Source: a virus. From it: 28,191 bases of DNA. Position numbers and translations under genes: made by a program. Positions 4,004 through 27,269 of this stretch are shown here, in pieces (position 1 is the first letter of the stretch; each line of letters opens with the position of its first letter). The DNA lies in the IMG/VR virus record IMGVR_UViG_3300001349_000052, positions 4,093-32,283 of that record; one strand, 5' to 3'. The notes beneath the pieces were generated by a model. It saw nothing but the letters and a program-made list of their open reading frames with translations. It was not told the origin of the DNA and did no database searches.

Positions 4004-4016
4004 TATTTATAATAAA
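4004..4016 (+). promoter_or_regulatory. Putative late promoter element (copy 2)
   Basis: TATTTATAATAAA, identical over 13 bases to the copy at 870, in the 29-base gap before ATG 4028. TATAAT is at 4008-4013. It would drive the wedge block from 4028 to 14199, in which the genes are separated by at most 5 bases. Confidence 0.6.
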
Positions 4017-4027
4017 GTAACAGATAT

Positions 4028-4423
4028 ATGAAATTAAGTCAACTAAAAACAATCGTAAAGGAAGCCGTAAAAGAGGCAATCCAAGAAGAAATGAAAGATA
4101 TTCTTATGGAAGCTGTACGTAGTTCTAAACAAACAGTTATCGAAACTAAATCACCTTCTCCTTTAACTGGGGTAGGAACACCTGGACCTATGAACCCAAT
4201 AGCTCAAACTCCTATGCATGAAGATAAAAGGATGGAAATGAGAGAAAACATACAAAGTGTATTAGGATCTATGATGCCTGATGCTAATGGTAATATAAAA
4301 GCAACAACAAATAGTATGCCATTACAAATGGGTAGTATGGATACAACTAGCCCAAATGGTAGTTTACCCCAAGGTGAAGTAGATATGAGCCAAATAATGA
4401 GTTTAATGAAAGGTAAGATATAA
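4028..4423 (+). CDS. Small protein with N-terminal amphipathic helix, unknown function
   Basis: 131 residues with no family recognised. The first 35 residues form a strongly charged amphipathic helix (LKTIVKEAVKEAIQEEMKDI) that could be a coiled coil or assembly signal. The remainder is low-complexity, rich in Pro, Met, Gly, Ser and Thr, and probably disordered (for example GVGTPGPMNPIAQTPM). The C-terminus ends MSQIMSLMKGKI. It is the first gene after a TATTTATAAT element and is followed after 1 base by gp25, so it belongs to the baseplate wedge block. An assembly factor or a flexible minor virion protein would fit, but this is not shown by the sequence. Confidence 0.7.
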   Translation: MKLSQLKTIVKEAVKEAIQEEMKDILMEAVRSSKQTVIETKSPSPLTGVGTPGPMNPIAQTPMHEDKRMEMRENIQSVLGSMMPDANGNIKATTNSMPLQMGSMDTTSPNGSLPQGEVDMSQIMSLMKGKI

Positions 4424-4424
4424 T

Positions 4425-4832
4425 ATGGCGTTTGGAGCAATAAATAAATTCCCAAATGACACTAGACCCCGAGTAGGTATAGGTGTTAATATACCTTTTA
4501 ACGAAGGTGGGGTATTTACTCCAAATTACACAACAGCAGAATCAATTAAGAATAATTTAATTAATTATTTTTTAACAAACCCAGGAGAAAGACCAGGTAA
4601 TCCTAGATTTGGTGGGGGTTTAAGAGCATTTATATTTGAACAAATTACAAATAATAATTTAGAATATTTAAAAGAAGATGTTTCTAACAAAATAAAAGTT
4701 AAATTTCCTAATGTTGAAGTAGTTGAATTAAATGTTTTAGCAGCAACAGATAACAATGAAGTAACAATACAATTGTATTATAGAGTAACTAACACTTCTA
4801 TTGAAGATGAACTCGTATTAAATTTCGCATAA
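4425..4832 (+). CDS. gp25: Baseplate wedge subunit, gp25/gpW-like
   Basis: 135 residues, close to T4 gp25 (132). This family (gp25, P2 gpW, type VI secretion TssE) joins the inner baseplate to the first sheath ring. The diagnostic core is LINYFLTNPGERPGNPRFGG (45-64), with the conserved Gly-Glu-Arg and the Phe-Gly that follows. Next come a helical segment (LEYLKEDVSNKIKVKFPNV) and the C-terminal beta-strands VTIQLYYRV and ELVLNF. It overlaps the gp6-like start by one base (TAATG), so the two are coupled. The gp25-gp6 order is typical of contractile-tail baseplates. Confidence 0.9.
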   Translation: MAFGAINKFPNDTRPRVGIGVNIPFNEGGVFTPNYTTAESIKNNLINYFLTNPGERPGNPRFGGGLRAFIFEQITNNNLEYLKEDVSNKIKVKFPNVEVVELNVLAATDNNEVTIQLYYRVTNTSIEDELVLNFA

Positions 4833-6673
4833 TGGCAATAAAAAGAAACATAAACTACATAAATAAAGAATTTTCGGAGTATAGGTCTCAATTAATTAAT
4901 TACTCACAGACTTATTTCCCAACCACTTATACTGACTTTACGGAGACATCACCTGGTATGATGTTTATTGAACAAGCCGCTTATGTTAGTGATGTATTAT
5001 CCTTTTATTTAGATAACCAAGTTCAAGAGAATTTTTTACAATATGCAAGACAAAATAGTAACTTATATGATTTAGCATATATGTGGGGTTATAAACCTAA
5101 GGCAACAGGTTTAGCAGAAACCACTATGGAATTCTACCAACAACTACCAGCTAAATTAGTAGATAATGAATATATACCTGATTATGATTACTCAGTAACA
5201 ATTCCAGCCAATACTACTATAAGTACCCAAACAGGTACATCAATTAAGTTTTCTATAGAAGATCCAATTGATTTTTCAGTTTCATCCTCTTCGGACACAA
5301 CGGAGGTATTTATTGCTCAAACAAATGCTGGTGTACCTTCATATTATCTACTCCAAAAAACTAGAAAAGCATTTTCAGGAACTATAACTACAGATAGTTT
5401 TACGTTTACTAACCCACAAGAATTTCAAACTGTAACTTTAACATCCCCTAATATTGCGGGTATTATAGATATATTTGATTCTGAGGGAAACAGATGGTAT
5501 GAAGTAGATTATTTAGCCCAAGATTTAGTATACGATAGCTTAAAAAATACAAATGTAAATAGTCCTAATACTTTTGAGGATTCGGATGCACCATTTTTAT
5601 TACAAACTAAAAACGTTCAAAATAGGTTTGCTACGAGATTTTTATCCCCCACAGAACTACAAATTCAATTTGGGTCAGGAAACCCAGCAGATACAACAGA
5701 AGATGTAATACCAAATTCTATGAATGTAGGTTTAGGTTTACCATTTGAGCAAGATAAACTTACAACAGCTTATAGCCCAACAAATTTTATATTTACAAAT
5801 ACTTATGGTGTTTCACCAACAAATACCACTTTAACAGTTAGGTATTATACGGGTGGTGGGGTTCAATCTAATGTATTATCAAATACGATTACTAATTTAG
5901 ATAATAACAACATTACTTTTAATAAAAACAACTTAAACCAAGCAACTTCAAATTATATTTTTAACACTGTTGCCGCTAATAATAAAATAGCGGCGAGTGG
6001 GGGTCAAGATGGTGACACGATAGAAGAAATAAGACAAAACTCTATATCACAGTTTTCTACTCAATTAAGAAATGTAACTCAAGATGATTATTTAGTAAGA
6101 GCTTTAAGCATGCCCTCTAAATATGGTACTATATCAAAAGGATGGACACAAAAACCTAATGCTGATGATGGTAATACTACATTGGATTTATATGTATTAT
6201 CCAATAATCTTAACAATAAATTAAATTTGGCATCGGATACACTGAAACAAAATTTAAGGACATATATAAACCAGTATAGAATGATCGGTGATACTATTAG
6301 TATTAAAGATGCATTCATTATTAATTTTGGGGTTTCATTTGAAGTGATAACTTATCCTAATTTTAATAGTAATGAAGTAATAGAAAGATGTATATCGGCT
6401 TTAAAAGATTATTTTTTAACTGATAAATGGCAAATAAACCAACCTATTATAGTACCTGATATTTACGTATTATTAGATACTTTAGATGGGGTACAAACTG
6501 TAAAAACAGTTAATATTGGTAACTTAGCAGGAACATCATCAGGATACTCACAATGGGCTTATGATATGAGTGGAGCAAATCAAAATGGAACAATATACCC
6601 ATCATTAGACCCAAGTATATTTGAACTTAAATACCCAGACACAGACATACAAGGAAGGGTAGTAAACTTATAA
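4832..6673 (+). CDS. gp6: Baseplate wedge protein, gp6 / baseplate J-like
   Basis: 613 residues (T4 gp6 is 660). It forms the wedge core that links baseplate sectors and transmits the sheath-contraction signal. The N-terminus has the family-like pattern TDFTETSPGMMFIEQAAYVS (about 35-54), followed by SFYLDNQVQENFLQYARQN and LYDLAYMWGYKPK. The baseplate J-like core is at about 386-445: GGQDGDTIEEIRQNSISQF, then LRNVTQDDYLVRAL, the usual Gly-Gly-x-Asp-x-(Glu/Asp) and Arg-x-Val-Thr-x-x-Asp-Tyr arrangement. The C-terminal third holds alternating strands and helices (ISALKDYFLTDKWQINQPI) as in gpJ relatives. The gene overlaps gp25 by one base and the next gene starts 2 bases after it. Confidence 0.88.
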   Translation: MAIKRNINYINKEFSEYRSQLINYSQTYFPTTYTDFTETSPGMMFIEQAAYVSDVLSFYLDNQVQENFLQYARQNSNLYDLAYMWGYKPKATGLAETTMEFYQQLPAKLVDNEYIPDYDYSVTIPANTTISTQTGTSIKFSIEDPIDFSVSSSSDTTEVFIAQTNAGVPSYYLLQKTRKAFSGTITTDSFTFTNPQEFQTVTLTSPNIAGIIDIFDSEGNRWYEVDYLAQDLVYDSLKNTNVNSPNTFEDSDAPFLLQTKNVQNRFATRFLSPTELQIQFGSGNPADTTEDVIPNSMNVGLGLPFEQDKLTTAYSPTNFIFTNTYGVSPTNTTLTVRYYTGGGVQSNVLSNTITNLDNNNITFNKNNLNQATSNYIFNTVAANNKIAASGGQDGDTIEEIRQNSISQFSTQLRNVTQDDYLVRALSMPSKYGTISKGWTQKPNADDGNTTLDLYVLSNNLNNKLNLASDTLKQNLRTYINQYRMIGDTISIKDAFIINFGVSFEVITYPNFNSNEVIERCISALKDYFLTDKWQINQPIIVPDIYVLLDTLDGVQTVKTVNIGNLAGTSSGYSQWAYDMSGANQNGTIYPSLDPSIFELKYPDTDIQGRVVNL

Positions 6674-8388: not shown

Positions 8389-11300
8389 ATGGAAGAAAAA
8401 AATAACATAACAATAGTTCAAGTAGACCCAACCACATTTGAATATCAAGAGTATTCGGAACAAGATAATAATCTAATAGAATCTAGAATATTAGATACAG
8501 ATTTTACTTCATCAAGTGATTACATTGAATATTATATCTACGATAATTCGAAGAATTTGTTATTTCCTAATCAAGGAGAAGAAACAAGAATATATGACCA
8601 AAGAGAATATAGTGTAATAGAAGGAGATACTATACTATACCCAGCTCAAAATTTAGAAAATATTGGGTATGATAGTGGTACTTTTTATTCTACCTATAAT
8701 TTTTATAAAAAAAGATTAACATCTGACCAATTTGCAAATTATTATATTTGTGAAATTAGCTCAGACAGAACAGAACTTAGGTTAAAAAGTTCAACAATAC
8801 CCTCTGATTTAATAATATCATCTTCACAAGAGTTTATTGAATATAGAGAAAATGCTGATTATTTTGTAGATTTTTTCCTTAATTTTGGAAATGACCAACA
8901 AGCTATTGCTAATAATTTAAGATTAGATGTTGAAACAGAAGTAGAACCTTCAGTATTAATTAAATTATATGAACCTTTACCTCCTAATTTTACTTTAAAG
9001 TCTACATTATGGGTAGTAGAAGAAATATCTTCACCACAGGCATATAAAGTAACTTTCCCCGAGGAAGATTTTATACCTAATGACTTTCAATTAATAAAAG
9101 GACCAAATTATAGTATATCTGTAACCCAACAAACGGGGGAGGCGTCACAAAATTTTAATTATAATACTTTACTTAGTACAAATATAACAAGTTCATTTGA
9201 CCAATTAAAAAACATATTAAATAGAAAAGAAATAAACATTAATGTAAACTATGAAGATTACAAAGAGTTTGTACATTTCTCTTCTGCACAGACAAGATTA
9301 GAAAATTTTTATTATAAAGTAGGGCTAATTCAATCCTCAAATACAAAAATAGGCAATTTACCTACTACTGATGGGTTATATAGCGCAAGTAAAGCAGAAT
9401 TAACAACTTCAATTACTAAGGTAATTGAGGGTTTTGATGGATATGAGTATTTTATGTACTATAATAGTGGTTCACTTAAATCCTACCCAAAATCTAATAC
9501 AGAACCCCCTTACATTCTAGAACCAACAACTAGTACAATAGTTAAAACCTGGTTAGGTAGTGCAGACCCTGAAAATAGTTATTATGGTGGTCAAGCTTTA
9601 AGAGCAAATGAATATGATGAAAATAACCAAGATTATCTATATAACTCAATACCAGAATACTTAAGATCAGACCCCAATAACGAAAAATATGAATTATTCG
9701 TTGATATGGTTGCTCAACAGTATGATAACACATGGTTATATACTAAAAATATTACCACTAGATTTGACGCGGATAACCGTTTAGATTATGGTATTTCTAA
9801 GGATTTAGTAGCAGATGCTATTAGAGATTTTGGTGTTAAATTGTATTCAAATAATTTTAATTCAAACGATTTATATACATCCTTTTTAGGACTTACCCCT
9901 TCAGGTAGTACATTCCCTTTCCCATATATGACGGGTTCAATTGGTGGCGCGGTTGCGACACCTTCTGGGTATGAGTACATAACTACCCAAATATCGGCAT
10001 CGAATGATATAGTCCCATTGGATGATGTTAACAAGCGTTTATATAAACGAATTTACCATAATATACCATATTTACTTAAAACTAAGGGTACAGTAGCTGG
10101 TTTAAGAGCATTAATTACTTCATATGGTATCCCAGATACTATTTTAAGAATAAATGAATTTGGTGGTAAAGATAGAAATGATTTTCAAGATTGGGATTAT
10201 AGTGAAAATGTTTATAATTATGCTTTCCATGCAGATGGAGGGGTTAATAGTTATATAACATCTTCTTTTGTATTAAATCAAGATTTCCCAAATAGTGCTA
10301 CAGCACCAAGATCAATGCAATTTAGGTTTAAGACACCTGGACTACCAGATGAAACTCAAAACCCACCACCATATTATTATAATATATGGAAAACAGACCA
10401 AAATAAATCTAATATTACATTAGAATATTCAGGGACAGGTTTAACATCAGGTTCATATTCTGGGTCAATTCCATCCCTTGATAACCAATATGGTAAACTA
10501 ACTTTTTGGCCTGATGGTGCTAATAATACTAATGATACTGCCTCTATAACTTTACCTTTCTTTGATGGAGGTTGGTGGTCAGCTATGGTAACAGTAGATT
10601 ATAATAATTCCGAAAAGGCTATTTTATATGCCGCTAATAGAATTGGTGACAAAATAGGATTTACAGGTTCAGATTCTACTACTTACACGTGGCAATATTA
10701 TGCTACAAGTGAAACATCTTCTTTTAGTGAGGGTACTTATAGTTTAAATGGAGACAATTATGTTCAATTTACTGGAGCATTTCAAGAAATAAGATATTGG
10801 GATATACCATTAAGTGAAAGTTTATTTTATGATTATGTTGTTAACCCATATTCAACACAAGGTAATACAATTAATTCTACCCCTCTAGACTTAGCTTTTA
10901 GAGCGGATTTAGGTACACAATTAATAACTTCTAGTAGAACATCAATACACCCTAAAGTAACAGGATCTTGGGTAACAACAAGTTCATTTAGAGATGACAG
11001 TTCATTTTATGTGCAAGGTAATTTTATAGAAAACACTGAAGAAATTTACCTAAACCAAGTACCAGGAGGTATTAAAAACAGAATATCAGATCAAATTAAA
11101 ATTGATCAAGAAGTATTGCCATTAGGTGACACATTATCTCCTTATATATCTATTCAACAGTCAGTCTTCCCTAGTGGAAGTAATCCAAGCATAAATTATT
11201 TAGAAGTAGCATTTTCACCTACAGACCAAACTAACGATGATATTATAGCACAAATAGGTGCATTTAATTTAGGAGATTATATTGGTGATCCAAGACAAAT

Positions 11301-14199
11301 ATCAGAATCAGGGTATTCATATTCTCAATTGGATAGACTAAGGGATGAATATTTTACAAAATATATAGATAGTTATGATGTAAATGATTTTGTTAGGTTA
11401 ATTAAATTCTTTGACAATTCATTATTTAAAATGTTAGAAGATTTTACACCTGCTAGAACAAGTTTATCGTCTGGTGTTGTAATTAAACAAAACTTATTAG
11501 AAAGAAATAGACAAAGACCAGCACAAGTTTCTTCTGCTGTAACTATGTCTACTTACTTTGAAAACACACCTTCAGATCCATTTAGTGAGGTGGTACCAAT
11601 AGTTCAAAAAGATCAAGTACTAGAAGGTACAGTATTATCACAAGCTAGAGATTTTAATCCTGGCTCTAATGATTACCCACAAAACAATAAAATAAGTGGT
11701 TCATCCATATATGTTTTTGATGGGGGAACAGGTGGTGTATTTGACCCCTTTAATACCATATACAACGCACCAATAAGCACCTCAATACAAGAAACATGTT
11801 TACCATTTTATTCGTATTCTTCTTCTAACGATTTAACAGCAGCAGAATATAATTATGGTACTGTTTTATTCTCAAGTACAGTTGGAACTTCAACTAATAC
11901 AATGAGTTTTAGTATATATAATGAACAAGGAGGAAATAATGTTGAATTTTTTAACTCATTAACCTCATCAATATCCCAATCAGAAATATTTTTAAACTTA
12001 GGGATAGCTACTCCATACCCATTAACGGGGTTAGCAGCAGGCTTTAATGGTACTGATATTACACATCAAATAGATTTTATAGATATACTCCCAGATAATG
12101 GTTATGGGGATGCACAGTATGGGTCTGATTTTGTTGCTAATTCAAATACATATGGGTACCAAACTACCGCTTCATTTATAGCCCATTTAACAGTAATAAG
12201 CAATGGTCCTCCTGCAATATTATTAAAGGACGAAGATGAGTTATCTACTTTCTGCTTTGTAACATCTGGATCACCATATAGTGGTAAAACAGGTGCTGAA
12301 GTATCTGCATCATTATTTGGTAGAGCATATCCTGGGGTTATACAAGACATGGAAGAAATTGTATACCCAACAATGGGTACTAATTTCCCAATAGGTTCAA
12401 GTAAGGATATAAACTTAGATTCATATGGGCAAGGCCCTCTAACAATAGAAAGAATTGACCAACGTGAATTTTATAATGGAGAATTTCCTAATAATATAGA
12501 TGTAAAATTAAAAGATATTTGTGGTGCTTTTTTTGGACAAGACGATGTACCCGATTATCAATTTTATATTAATTGGTTTAATAAAAGAAGTTTTCCTGAA
12601 GAATTATTTCTAACCTCGTCAAATTTACCATTAAAAAGTAATATATGGTTATGGGCAGACACAATATCTGACCCTAAGACAGGATTAAACTCCCCATTAT
12701 TAGTAAACACAAATATACAAGTAAATGAACAGTTAGCTGTTACAACAAATCAATTTGTATATAGTAAAATCTCAGGAGTTGGGTCAAAGAAGGGTACAAT
12801 CTACCTTGAAACTGGACCTGGAGAAGGGGCGGGTAATGAAATAGTATCTGCATATTTTGATCCAAATTCTACAGCTCCTGAAGATTATGAAGGAGGGGGT
12901 ACAATTACAATTACAGCCGCTACTTTAATATCTTTAGGGTTTACTTTTGGATTATCAGAAAATGACTTAACACTTAACCTACCTACTCAAATATTAGACC
13001 CTGTTCCAACTAATAAAGTAAAATACATTAAAATCTCTAATAGTGATATTAATGGTGTTACAATACTTCCATTTATACAAGATAGTGAATATTTAATTTT
13101 AAATTTAACGGGGGCTTCTGATTTTAATAATACATTAATTGAAGGGTACCAAACATGGTATATATCAAATGCTTCAATACAAAATGATAACATTCCTGCT
13201 ACTGAAGATGCAACATTACTTATAATAAATGAACCACCTTCATCAGATGCTGTATCATCATTTGATTCTCAATTTGTTGATTTAACATTTAGTGCTAGTG
13301 GTGTATTTAATTATTATGCAACATCTTCTGGAGTTGACCCAACAGTTACTCCAAATATTAATCTTAGTGAATCTATAGCACAGGGATATTTCCCACCAAC
13401 TGATAGATCACCTGGTTTTCCAACAGAATCTTTCTTTAGAGGATGGGATGATGCAAGTTACTTACAGGCTGATGATGATGGAGATATATATAGAGTATCA
13501 TCAGGTACTGGTTTTAATACTGACCTTTTAGGTAATTTCAATACTGGTTCAAGAGAATTTGATGCCGATGAAGAAACAGGGCTTACAGCTGGAGCAGTAA
13601 ATGCTAAAAGTACTGTGCCTTGGTTTATGAATGCACAAGAATCATTAACACAAGTATTAGATAATTCATCATTAGTAGGAGACTTAGGACAAACTGATTT
13701 GCAGTTATATACAGGTTCAATAACTGCTTCTTCTGTTGAAATAGGTCTTACCTTAAATATGTTTGATGATCAGGCACCAATATACTCACCTACAGTGATA
13801 ATTGGAACACTTACTCAACCACCTCTTCCTTTTATTACTGTTAATTCCCCTAACAATTTATCTTCAGTACCAAATTTCCCAACTAGTAGGTATCCAATTA
13901 CGGTAACTACAAGTTTATCAACAATAAACTGGACGATATCAACCACATTTAATGATGGTAACAACTGGTTTAGATGTTATACTACACCAACAGGATACAC
14001 AGTTATTAATAGTGGACAAGGAACATTAACTGTTTATTTAGATATAGACATTGGGGGTTATGGAAGTTCTTACAATAGTACAGAAAGATCAGGAAATTTA
14101 AAATTCACAAATCAGGGTAACATTAACAATAATTTAAGAGTTTATATAGATCAAGATGTATGGGATGATACTGGTTCTGGTAATCAGGGAATTCTTTAA
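8389..14199 (+). CDS. Giant baseplate/tail protein: gpI (gp7-like) core, LamG-like lectin domain, C-terminal BACON-like domain
   Basis: 1936 residues. Residues 551-595 carry LYKRIYHNIPYLLKTKGT and GLRALITSYGIPDTILRI, the signature of phage tail protein I (P2 gpI; T4 gp7 occupies the same wedge position). Residues about 620-825 look like a LamG/concanavalin-like sandwich: MQFRFKTPG, WWSAMVTVDY, then FQEIRYWDIPLSESLFYDYV. A helical block at about 975-1045 (SQLDRLRDEYFTKYIDSYDV, FDNSLFKMLEDFTPARTSL) follows. Around 1504 is a fibre-like module (GTITITAATLISLG) shared with the next giant gene. Residues about 1815-1930 resemble a BACON domain: INWTISTTFNDGNNWFRC, a Gly-x-Gly strand, then ERSGNLKF and LRVYIDQDV. 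It follows gp25 and gp6, giving the canonical W-J-I wedge order. Likely role: a wedge protein extended into a host-facing, glycan-binding structure. The core assignment is stronger than the C-terminal domain calls. Confidence 0.7.
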   Translation: MEEKNNITIVQVDPTTFEYQEYSEQDNNLIESRILDTDFTSSSDYIEYYIYDNSKNLLFPNQGEETRIYDQREYSVIEGDTILYPAQNLENIGYDSGTFYSTYNFYKKRLTSDQFANYYICEISSDRTELRLKSSTIPSDLIISSSQEFIEYRENADYFVDFFLNFGNDQQAIANNLRLDVETEVEPSVLIKLYEPLPPNFTLKSTLWVVEEISSPQAYKVTFPEEDFIPNDFQLIKGPNYSISVTQQTGEASQNFNYNTLLSTNITSSFDQLKNILNRKEININVNYEDYKEFVHFSSAQTRLENFYYKVGLIQSSNTKIGNLPTTDGLYSASKAELTTSITKVIEGFDGYEYFMYYNSGSLKSYPKSNTEPPYILEPTTSTIVKTWLGSADPENSYYGGQALRANEYDENNQDYLYNSIPEYLRSDPNNEKYELFVDMVAQQYDNTWLYTKNITTRFDADNRLDYGISKDLVADAIRDFGVKLYSNNFNSNDLYTSFLGLTPSGSTFPFPYMTGSIGGAVATPSGYEYITTQISASNDIVPLDDVNKRLYKRIYHNIPYLLKTKGTVAGLRALITSYGIPDTILRINEFGGKDRNDFQDWDYSENVYNYAFHADGGVNSYITSSFVLNQDFPNSATAPRSMQFRFKTPGLPDETQNPPPYYYNIWKTDQNKSNITLEYSGTGLTSGSYSGSIPSLDNQYGKLTFWPDGANNTNDTASITLPFFDGGWWSAMVTVDYNNSEKAILYAANRIGDKIGFTGSDSTTYTWQYYATSETSSFSEGTYSLNGDNYVQFTGAFQEIRYWDIPLSESLFYDYVVNPYSTQGNTINSTPLDLAFRADLGTQLITSSRTSIHPKVTGSWVTTSSFRDDSSFYVQGNFIENTEEIYLNQVPGGIKNRISDQIKIDQEVLPLGDTLSPYISIQQSVFPSGSNPSINYLEVAFSPTDQTNDDIIAQIGAFNLGDYIGDPRQISESGYSYSQLDRLRDEYFTKYIDSYDVNDFVRLIKFFDNSLFKMLEDFTPARTSLSSGVVIKQNLLERNRQRPAQVSSAVTMSTYFENTPSDPFSEVVPIVQKDQVLEGTVLSQARDFNPGSNDYPQNNKISGSSIYVFDGGTGGVFDPFNTIYNAPISTSIQETCLPFYSYSSSNDLTAAEYNYGTVLFSSTVGTSTNTMSFSIYNEQGGNNVEFFNSLTSSISQSEIFLNLGIATPYPLTGLAAGFNGTDITHQIDFIDILPDNGYGDAQYGSDFVANSNTYGYQTTASFIAHLTVISNGPPAILLKDEDELSTFCFVTSGSPYSGKTGAEVSASLFGRAYPGVIQDMEEIVYPTMGTNFPIGSSKDINLDSYGQGPLTIERIDQREFYNGEFPNNIDVKLKDICGAFFGQDDVPDYQFYINWFNKRSFPEELFLTSSNLPLKSNIWLWADTISDPKTGLNSPLLVNTNIQVNEQLAVTTNQFVYSKISGVGSKKGTIYLETGPGEGAGNEIVSAYFDPNSTAPEDYEGGGTITITAATLISLGFTFGLSENDLTLNLPTQILDPVPTNKVKYIKISNSDINGVTILPFIQDSEYLILNLTGASDFNNTLIEGYQTWYISNASIQNDNIPATEDATLLIINEPPSSDAVSSFDSQFVDLTFSASGVFNYYATSSGVDPTVTPNINLSESIAQGYFPPTDRSPGFPTESFFRGWDDASYLQADDDGDIYRVSSGTGFNTDLLGNFNTGSREFDADEETGLTAGAVNAKSTVPWFMNAQESLTQVLDNSSLVGDLGQTDLQLYTGSITASSVEIGLTLNMFDDQAPIYSPTVIIGTLTQPPLPFITVNSPNNLSSVPNFPTSRYPITVTTSLSTINWTISTTFNDGNNWFRCYTTPTGYTVINSGQGTLTVYLDIDIGGYGSSYNSTERSGNLKFTNQGNINNNLRVYIDQDVWDDTGSGNQGIL

Positions 14200-14242
14200 A
14201 AAATGTAAAACCACTTGGAGTACAGAAAATAAAATATTATAT

Positions 14243-14256
14243 TATTTATAACTAAA
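14243..14256 (+). promoter_or_regulatory. Putative late promoter element (copy 3)
   Basis: TATTTATAACTAAA in the 65-base gap before ATG 14265, with TATAAC at 14247-14252. This is one of the longer intergenic gaps in the window. Nothing else is visible in 14200-14242 and no convincing terminator hairpin was found. Confidence 0.6.
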
Positions 14257-14264
14257 TATTAGCA

Positions 14265-19663: not shown

Positions 19664-19673
19664 TATTTATAAC
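19664..19673 (+). promoter_or_regulatory. Putative late promoter element (copy 4)
   Basis: TATTTATAAC starts 2 bases after the stop of the giant gene and 28 bases before ATG 19692. TATAAC is at 19668-19673. It would drive the three genes from 19692 to 22470. Confidence 0.58.
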
Positions 19674-22479: not shown

Positions 22480-22493
22480 TATTTATAACAAAA
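22480..22493 (+). promoter_or_regulatory. Putative late promoter element (copy 5)
   Basis: TATTTATAACAAAA in the 41-base gap before ATG 22512, with TATAAC at 22484-22489. It separates the paralogue block from the fibre genes. Confidence 0.58.
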
Positions 22494-24306: not shown

Positions 24307-25350
24307 ATGGCTACAGAACAATTATTATTTGGGAGTGTTACAATAAGTACTATATTTACAGAAACATTAGGAAACAACCAATTTATTAGATTAAATGGTA
24401 ATACTACTAATAGTTCTAATGTAATTACAAATGTTGCCGATAATGGGGCTAGCTATTTTGGTGTAGCTGAACTAAAGGTAGGAATGAAATTAATTTCTAA
24501 TGGACCTTTTAGTACAAAAGTTACTATAACATCAATATCAGGAACATCCCCAAATGCAACTATTGAAGTAGATGGTGTTGCTGCCTCTTCTACAACAGGA
24601 AATTTACTAAGAGTAGATCCGGGACCAGGACAAGCATTTATTGAATCAGGTTCAATGTCTTATCCTTCTGGGCAAACAGACATTAATGCAAGTTCTGTTA
24701 CAGGTAGTAATGATCCAGAATATGTAGCAGACGATTTACAATGGGCAGTAGCTGTACCAGTATCAAAAGATGGAGCTTTATCAACACAAAGAATAGGACA
24801 ATTTGCCCAATTTAGTTTGTTTGATGTTCAGAGTAGACCCAATGGTGTATCCGGAGGTTTAATAAATATGTTCATTACATCAAGTGGGGGAGATATGAAT
24901 GGCTTCCCAGATGGGTATAATTGGTTTAGTAGTACATCACAATGTATTATATATCAAGTTGGAAGTGAAAATAAAGTAGGTCCAATGTTTAATGCCTCAG
25001 ATGTAGCTATATCAGATGCCTTTGGATTTGCCCCAGGTCAAGTAATGGCTGGTAATATAATGAATACATTAACATCAGGATCATCAGGGGCAGGTTTCCC
25101 ATTTACCGGTTCAGCAGAAATTACAGGTTCATTAGCAGTAACAGGTAGTTCAGAATTTACAATTCCAGTAGGGAATGAAGCTAATAATTTCTTTATAAAA
25201 TCAGGATCTGCAGCAAACGATCCAAGAGTGTTTAACGTAAACGGTGAAGGAACAATACAGTTCTATGCTCAAGATAATGCTTATACACCAACCGCTGTAT
25301 TAGGTGGTTTATACTTTACTTCAGCATCTGCTTACATAGGAATAGAATAA
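24307..25350 (+). CDS. Virion/fibre-associated protein with TGS beta repeat
   Basis: 347 residues, no named family. The N-terminal ~110 residues form a beta-rich domain (TNSSNVITNVADNG, then VGMKLISNGPFSTKVTITSI). A middle domain contains DLQWAVAVPVSKDGALSTQ and MFITSSGGDMNGFPDGYNWF. Around 270-295 a TGS repeat (FTGSAEITGSLAVTGSSEFT) resembles those in the neighbouring fibre genes and precedes a C-terminal beta segment (NEANNFFIKSG, then VFNVNGEGTIQFYAQ). There is no signal peptide. Flanked by fibre genes on both sides, it is probably a fibre or adhesin component. It could also be a chaperone-like partner, though nothing in the sequence shows that. Confidence 0.65.
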   Translation: MATEQLLFGSVTISTIFTETLGNNQFIRLNGNTTNSSNVITNVADNGASYFGVAELKVGMKLISNGPFSTKVTITSISGTSPNATIEVDGVAASSTTGNLLRVDPGPGQAFIESGSMSYPSGQTDINASSVTGSNDPEYVADDLQWAVAVPVSKDGALSTQRIGQFAQFSLFDVQSRPNGVSGGLINMFITSSGGDMNGFPDGYNWFSSTSQCIIYQVGSENKVGPMFNASDVAISDAFGFAPGQVMAGNIMNTLTSGSSGAGFPFTGSAEITGSLAVTGSSEFTIPVGNEANNFFIKSGSAANDPRVFNVNGEGTIQFYAQDNAYTPTAVLGGLYFTSASAYIGIE

Positions 25351-27255: not shown

Positions 27256-27269
27256 TATTTATAATAAAA
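27256..27269 (+). promoter_or_regulatory. Putative late promoter element (copy 6)
   Basis: TATTTATAATAAAA in the 60-base gap before ATG 27287, with TATAAT at 27260-27265. It shares TATTTATAATAAA with copies 1 and 2 and would start a unit with the second collagen-like fibre gene. Confidence 0.6.

Follow-up and report, generated by a model that had tools for sequence, protein, structure and literature searches.

Gut Bacteroidota and crAss-like phages commonly carry BACON domains. The bacterial family PF13004, represented by BoGH5A (PDB 3zmr), places the domain at the N terminus of a bacterial enzyme, and a BACON-type domain is also found on phage proteins of crAss-like phages (PF19190, BACON_2; PMC6949934). 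The function of BACON is stated as unknown in PMC12853789 and is open also in PMC11992087. Here, we analyze a BACON-like domain at the C terminus of ORF1, a giant protein of the baseplate region encoded in 28,191 nucleotides of the virus record IMGVR_UViG_3300001349_000052 (positions 4,093 to 32,283; this whole stretch is called the window). The domain is like PF13004 in its predicted immunoglobulin (Ig)-like sandwich, in the order of its Trp, Arg and Gln and in having a homologue that passes the family cutoff, but it is C-terminal on a phage baseplate protein, lacks the central Asn and scores below detection itself. It differs from the domains of crAss-like phages in being fused, as a single copy, to the baseplate protein of a contractile tail. 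In PMC6949934, the tail-associated BACONs of gut phages are tandem repeats, and those that occur in isolation lie away from tail proteins. Hence, one BACON copy borne by a baseplate protein is new within the literature searched, which took in neither subscription journals nor preprints. Flavobacterium phage vB_FspM_immuto (MW353176) has the same gene order, namely gp25-like and gp6-like proteins, two proteins, a giant homologue of ORF1 and then fibers, but its homologue has only 1265 amino acids (aa), with no BACON-like domain and, at an alignment gap, without most of a LamG-like part.

A divergent BACON-like domain

The preliminary description had placed a BACON-like domain at positions 13831-14190 (ORF1 residues 1815-1934) from the spacing of short motifs, and every motif it quoted is found in the translation. 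Relatives of the last 369 residues of ORF1 are encoded on 5 viral contigs, and an alignment-based search retrieved 15 loci (these and later relatives bear L numbers). Twelve C-terminal domains were aligned (alignment A2), omitting L001-L007 and L009 (contig repeats or near-copies), L019 and L020 (near-copies of L018), and L022 (without the domain). By window trio we mean the window together with L008 and L010, which are closest to it. Two residues of the domain, G66 and R88 (G1878, in an SGQG motif, and R1900), are invariant, and W36, W48 and Q110 (W1848, W1860 and Q1922) are nearly so.

The assignment to BACON is supported through the relatives and the fold. A profile made from the nine divergent relatives, leaving out the window trio, recovers the window domain (E=2.8e-12, 42.7 bits) and matches no other ORF of the window, and hhalign of the trio against these nine gives 96.7% (E=4.4e-10). 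In the homologous place, the domain of L011 passes the PF13004 model (26.4 bits against a cutoff of 25, 7.1e-6), alone among the 12 members of A2. Two others stay under the cutoff, L013 with 16.3 bits to PF13004 and L015 with 13.7 bits to PF19190, the viral BACON; no BACON model matched the remaining members or the later relatives L034 and L048. The Pfam match in L011 begins just before the second Trp of A2, so the N-terminal Trp of PF13004 appears to correspond to W1860 rather than to W1848. Of the signature given in PMC6949934, the Trp, the Arg and the C-terminal Gln are represented by W1860, R1900 and Q1922, and the column of the central Asn holds an Ile in the window; this Asn is kept in L011, L013, L014, L015, L016 and L017 and is absent in L012, L018, L021 and the window trio.

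An AlphaFold2 model of the domain, computed from the 12-sequence alignment, is all-beta (predicted local distance difference test [pLDDT] 86.6, predicted template modeling score 0.79). Among 989 re-aligned PDB chains, its best match is residues 42-128 of 3zmr_A (Z 10.1, root mean square deviation 2.1 Å, 85 aligned residues, 20% identity), which we take to be the N-terminal part of BoGH5A that holds its BACON domain. BACON-named viral models come at ranks 14 and 17 in BFVD. The structure of the BoGH5A BACON is mentioned in PMC6949934 and PMC12853789.

Several results speak against this assignment. The window's own domain matches no Pfam or PHROG family, even at E<=10 for Pfam. Foldseek alone gives no match under 0.001, and the second PDB match, a GH115 domain (4zmh, Z 9.3), counts as tied with the first, being within 1. 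The hhalign comparison with the tandem BACON-like repeats of the crAss-like phage cr11_1 is insignificant, at 0.8-3% for A2 and the trio and 0.3% for the nine, values that lie above those of 30 column shuffles (top 0.14). Other searches were also negative: PF13004 has no match anywhere in the whole record, family A6 matched none of 8 crAss-like genomes, tblastn with three versions of the domain found nothing in 50,697 phage records, and PDB sequence searches with the domain, its alignment or L011 returned nothing or chance matches only. We thus call the domain BACON-like and divergent, because the fold, the Trp, the Arg and the Gln agree with BACON, whereas its own profile score and the central Asn do not. 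The identity first proposed holds by way of the relatives (leave-out profile, L011) and the fold, but not by any family match of the window copy. Absence of a BACON profile match together with a fold other than Ig-like would have spoken against it; the former is true of the window copy, and the predicted fold is Ig-like.

A side observation concerns two Cys of the domain, close to its first and its last strand, which occur together in 8 of the 12 relatives and are both absent from the other 4 (the window trio and L012). They could form a disulfide; the four Cys-less rows are one clade.

The domain lies at a break in a larger protein

Homologues of ORF1 are present in 6 of the 50,697 phage records and in at least 554 viral-contig stretches. 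We kept 80 homologous loci, which are the best scoring among the matches listed and not a random sample. The BACON-like domain is missing from the homologues of immuto, Microcystis phage Mel-JY01 and LR756508. ORF2, the next gene, has no match in the phage records.

Many relatives encode the counterparts of ORF1 and ORF2 as one protein of about 3000 aa. For example, L040 has a single ORF of 3063 aa, whose residues 2-1426 are matched by ORF1 residues 4-1131, 1349-1422 and 1544-1750, and whose residues 1475-3063 are matched by ORF2 residues 5-216, 631-1012 and 1579-1798. Therefore, about 50 residues of this ORF correspond to the stretch that runs from the end of ORF1 through its stop and the 65-nucleotide gap into the start of ORF2. 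Of 101 core-bearing ORFs (duplicates included), 27 match the BACON-like profile, always in single copy and at the C terminus of ORF1; no match occurs in any of the 15 closed ORFs of more than 2300 aa. In each of the 12 non-redundant ORF1 proteins with BACON, the position of the domain is precisely that of the break.

A quick tree (LG+G4, no mixture) was made from the 76 of 99 usable core fragments that remained after a 90% identity cut, with L026 and L027 skipped for short coverage. All 12 BACON rows fall within one clade of 14 rows (Shimodaira-Hasegawa-like approximate likelihood ratio test 100), together with L042, cut by the contig end, and L035, split with a different ending. The sister of this clade comprises the unbroken L022 and L046 plus the truncated L039. 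Unbroken forms surround the BACON clade, and the counts cannot separate gain from loss.

Two related loci, L035 (8980-14619) and L037 (8986-14631), are split, yet end in a different sequence of about 230 residues without detectable BACON; that of L035, the one scanned, has no Pfam match. We rejected a programmed frameshift as the link between ORF1 and ORF2, since their relative reading frame varies from one relative to another and ORF2 begins at a start of its own, with a motif upstream.

Rate of change

No part of ORF1 is less conserved than the domain. In divergent relatives it has 16-28% identity to the window, against mostly 45-90% upstream and 26-42% in parts of residues 1201-1500. In the three pairs of the window trio, the ratio of nonsynonymous to synonymous rates (dN/dS, or omega) over residues 1815-1930 is 4.9, 2.35 and 3.1, against 0.09-0.10 over the remainder of ORF1 once residues 1430-1545 are set aside (p 7e-5, 6e-11 and 4e-10 for the contrast). 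With kappa set to 1, 2 and 4, a star-tree count of dN>dS in the trio domain gives p values of 0.026, 0.011 and 0.004, respectively, which is modest support for an excess of amino acid change there. A further pair, L034 and L079, has an omega of 1.0-1.2 in the tip versus 0.14-0.17 elsewhere (p 7.5e-4). Within ORF1, the signal is limited to the domain, apart from residues 1431-1545, whose high dS (Table 1) we read as the mark of a recombined allele within a conserved gene. A horizontal swap behind the fast change of the domain in the trio was rejected: dS of the domain is low (0.007-0.049), unlike that of residues 1431-1545 (near 1).

These rates should be interpreted with caution, since a number of observations pull the other way. 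The evidence for dN>dS comes mainly from one trio of related sequences, and two of its three pairs are not significant when taken singly (p 0.135, 0.127 and 0.034). L018, L019 and L020 have no rate difference in the tip (omega 0.23-0.52 on 2-5 tip changes), and deeper pairs give tip values of 0.45-0.86. Nor is fast change unique to the domain, as ORF2 and the fiber genes have such patches. In comparison with contig G013, omega is 0.06-0.29 upstream of ORF1, 0.46-1.29 in the genes of the fiber region and 0.63 in ORF2; the latter has 0.53 relative to contig G014. Finally, the non-BACON tip of L035 and L037 is also fast (0.62-0.72 versus 0.13-0.16), which may mean that fast change goes with the position itself.

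Two other fast regions can be mentioned in their own right. Near residues 130-160 and 1200-1350 of ORF2, near relatives differ by many amino acid and few silent changes. Moreover, a gene of 347 aa (24307-25350) has 43.7% identity to its G013 counterpart, with an omega of 1.29 over its length; genes upstream of the fiber region are more than 85% identical to theirs. It is a candidate receptor-binding fiber gene.

Genomic context

The baseplate context of ORF1 is clear: genes for gp25-like and gp6-like proteins lie upstream and collagen-like fibers downstream (Table 1). Of the earlier proposal of a T4-like wedge protein, these neighbors support the baseplate setting. As a whole, ORF1 has no PHROG or PDB sequence match to a named wedge protein (T4 gp7, gp8 or gp10). 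The fold model of its residues 1-1130 is mostly poor (pLDDT 56.4), and the structural match list of this poor model contains no wedge protein and is filled by the LamG-like domain, which has no Pfam match.

The TATTTATAA motif occurs six times on the plus strand (870-878, 4004-4012, 14243-14251, 19664-19672, 22480-22488 and 27256-27264) and never on the minus strand. Every copy sits in a gap, immediately ahead of the start of a gene, and six copies were reached in none of 5000 simulated sets of these gaps, which total 384 nucleotides. The exact motif precedes ORF2 in 11 of the 15 split relatives examined. In this phage group, it may serve as a late promoter or as a start element.

Table 1. Coordinates of ORF1, its C-terminal domain and neighboring features in the window
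Feature	Position	Strand	Evidence or remark
gp25-like baseplate wedge protein	4425..4832	+	phrog_261 E=9.4e-19
gp6/gpJ-like baseplate wedge protein	4832..6673	+	phrog_219 E=1.5e-11; PF04865 30 bits vs cutoff 21.1
ORF1, giant baseplate-region protein, 1936 aa	8389..14199	+	domain at C terminus
LamG/pentraxin-like (concanavalin A-like) domain, ORF1 residues 608-888	10210..11052	+	VIA-align Z up to 17.0, predicted model
ORF1 residues 1431-1545	12679..13023	+	dS ~0.98 vs L008 and L010; flanks near 0.05-0.2
Conserved stretch directly before the BACON-like domain, ORF1 residues 1546-1800	13024..13788	+	
BACON-like Ig-type beta-sandwich domain, ORF1 residues 1813-1925	13825..14163	+	leave-out profile, AlphaFold2, PDB match
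W1848, first conserved Trp of the domain	13930..13932	+	in TINWTIS
W1860, second conserved Trp, read as Pfam BACON N-terminal Trp	13966..13968	+	in GNNWFRC
R1900, invariant Arg of the domain	14086..14088	+	in STERSGN
Q1922, nearly invariant Gln, end of last strand	14152..14154	+	in YIDQDVW
ORF1-ORF2 gap, 65 nucleotides	14200..14264	+	break point relative to unbroken homologues of ~3000 aa
TATTTATAA motif before ORF2	14243..14251	+	candidate late promoter or start element
ORF2, 1798 aa	14265..19661	+	matches second half of unbroken homologues

Possible functions of the domain

The fast change of the domain relative to the rest of the protein suggests contact with the host surface. We lean towards the view that this divergent single BACON-like domain, which ends the first half of what in related phages is one giant baseplate chain, is an exposed tip that evolves under diversifying selection and probably contacts the host envelope. 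How it arose is a more tentative matter, and the following history is possible but doubtful. The ancestral protein of about 3000 residues would have split in the BACON clade, freeing a C terminus that would then have captured a BACON domain. Displayed on the exterior of the baseplate, the domain would have become a fast-evolving host-contact tip on the baseplate, not on a fiber. Such a tip would contact something variable during adsorption, most likely the host envelope, where protein, lipopolysaccharide, capsule or glycan are candidate partners. The glycan or mucin binding suggested in the preliminary description finds little encouragement, and mucin would be a poor guess. The BACON of BoGH5A is reported to have bound no tested substrate (PMC9853417) and that of BT4244 to have bound no tested sugar, whereas its CBM32 did (PMC11992087), which also tells against a host-contacting role.

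In the strongest rival, the domain is a structural cap or spacer, a role that published work has proposed for bacterial BACON domains. It would stabilize or space the free C terminus left after the split, and no host molecule would be its partner. Its single copy exactly at the break in all the non-redundant proteins would suit a cap, and the sugar-negative BACONs of BoGH5A and BT4244 have been read as linkers (PMC9853417, PMC11992087, PMC12853789). We nevertheless find a cap unlikely, since it should be conserved, whereas conservation along ORF1 is lowest in the domain, which has an excess of amino acid change in the trio; moreover, the split L035 and L037 do without a detectable BACON. Relaxed constraint could produce fast change without selection for it, if a nearly dispensable tip drifted with an omega near 1. 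The values of L034 and L079 and the mostly non-significant single pairs are what such drift would give, but the two Trp and the conserved Gly, Arg and Gln persist across the 12 divergent relatives, and the star-tree test in the trio favors an omega above 1, which makes this account improbable. Finally, the domain could be some other Ig-like fold, e.g., a chaperone-like or GH115-type sandwich, that merely resembles BACON. The missing Pfam match, the tie with 4zmh and the lost Asn of the window copy could be explained in this way; still, with L011 above the BACON cutoff in the homologous place, the W, R and Q kept and the BACON region of BoGH5A as the top structural match, we regard it as very improbable.

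The nearest cultured relatives are Flavobacterium phages (36-49%), followed by a Microcystis phage (29-40%). The Bacteroidota host proposed earlier is thus plausible on the first of these similarities, and the second tempers it. BACON occurs in none of 3 genomes of the group of the L025 metagenome-assembled genome, a result that is uninformative on the host.

This phage group offers a clean comparison between unbroken relatives without BACON and split relatives with it, along with a rate signal. The domain is small and can be expressed, and contact between phage BACON domains and the host could be tested on it directly.

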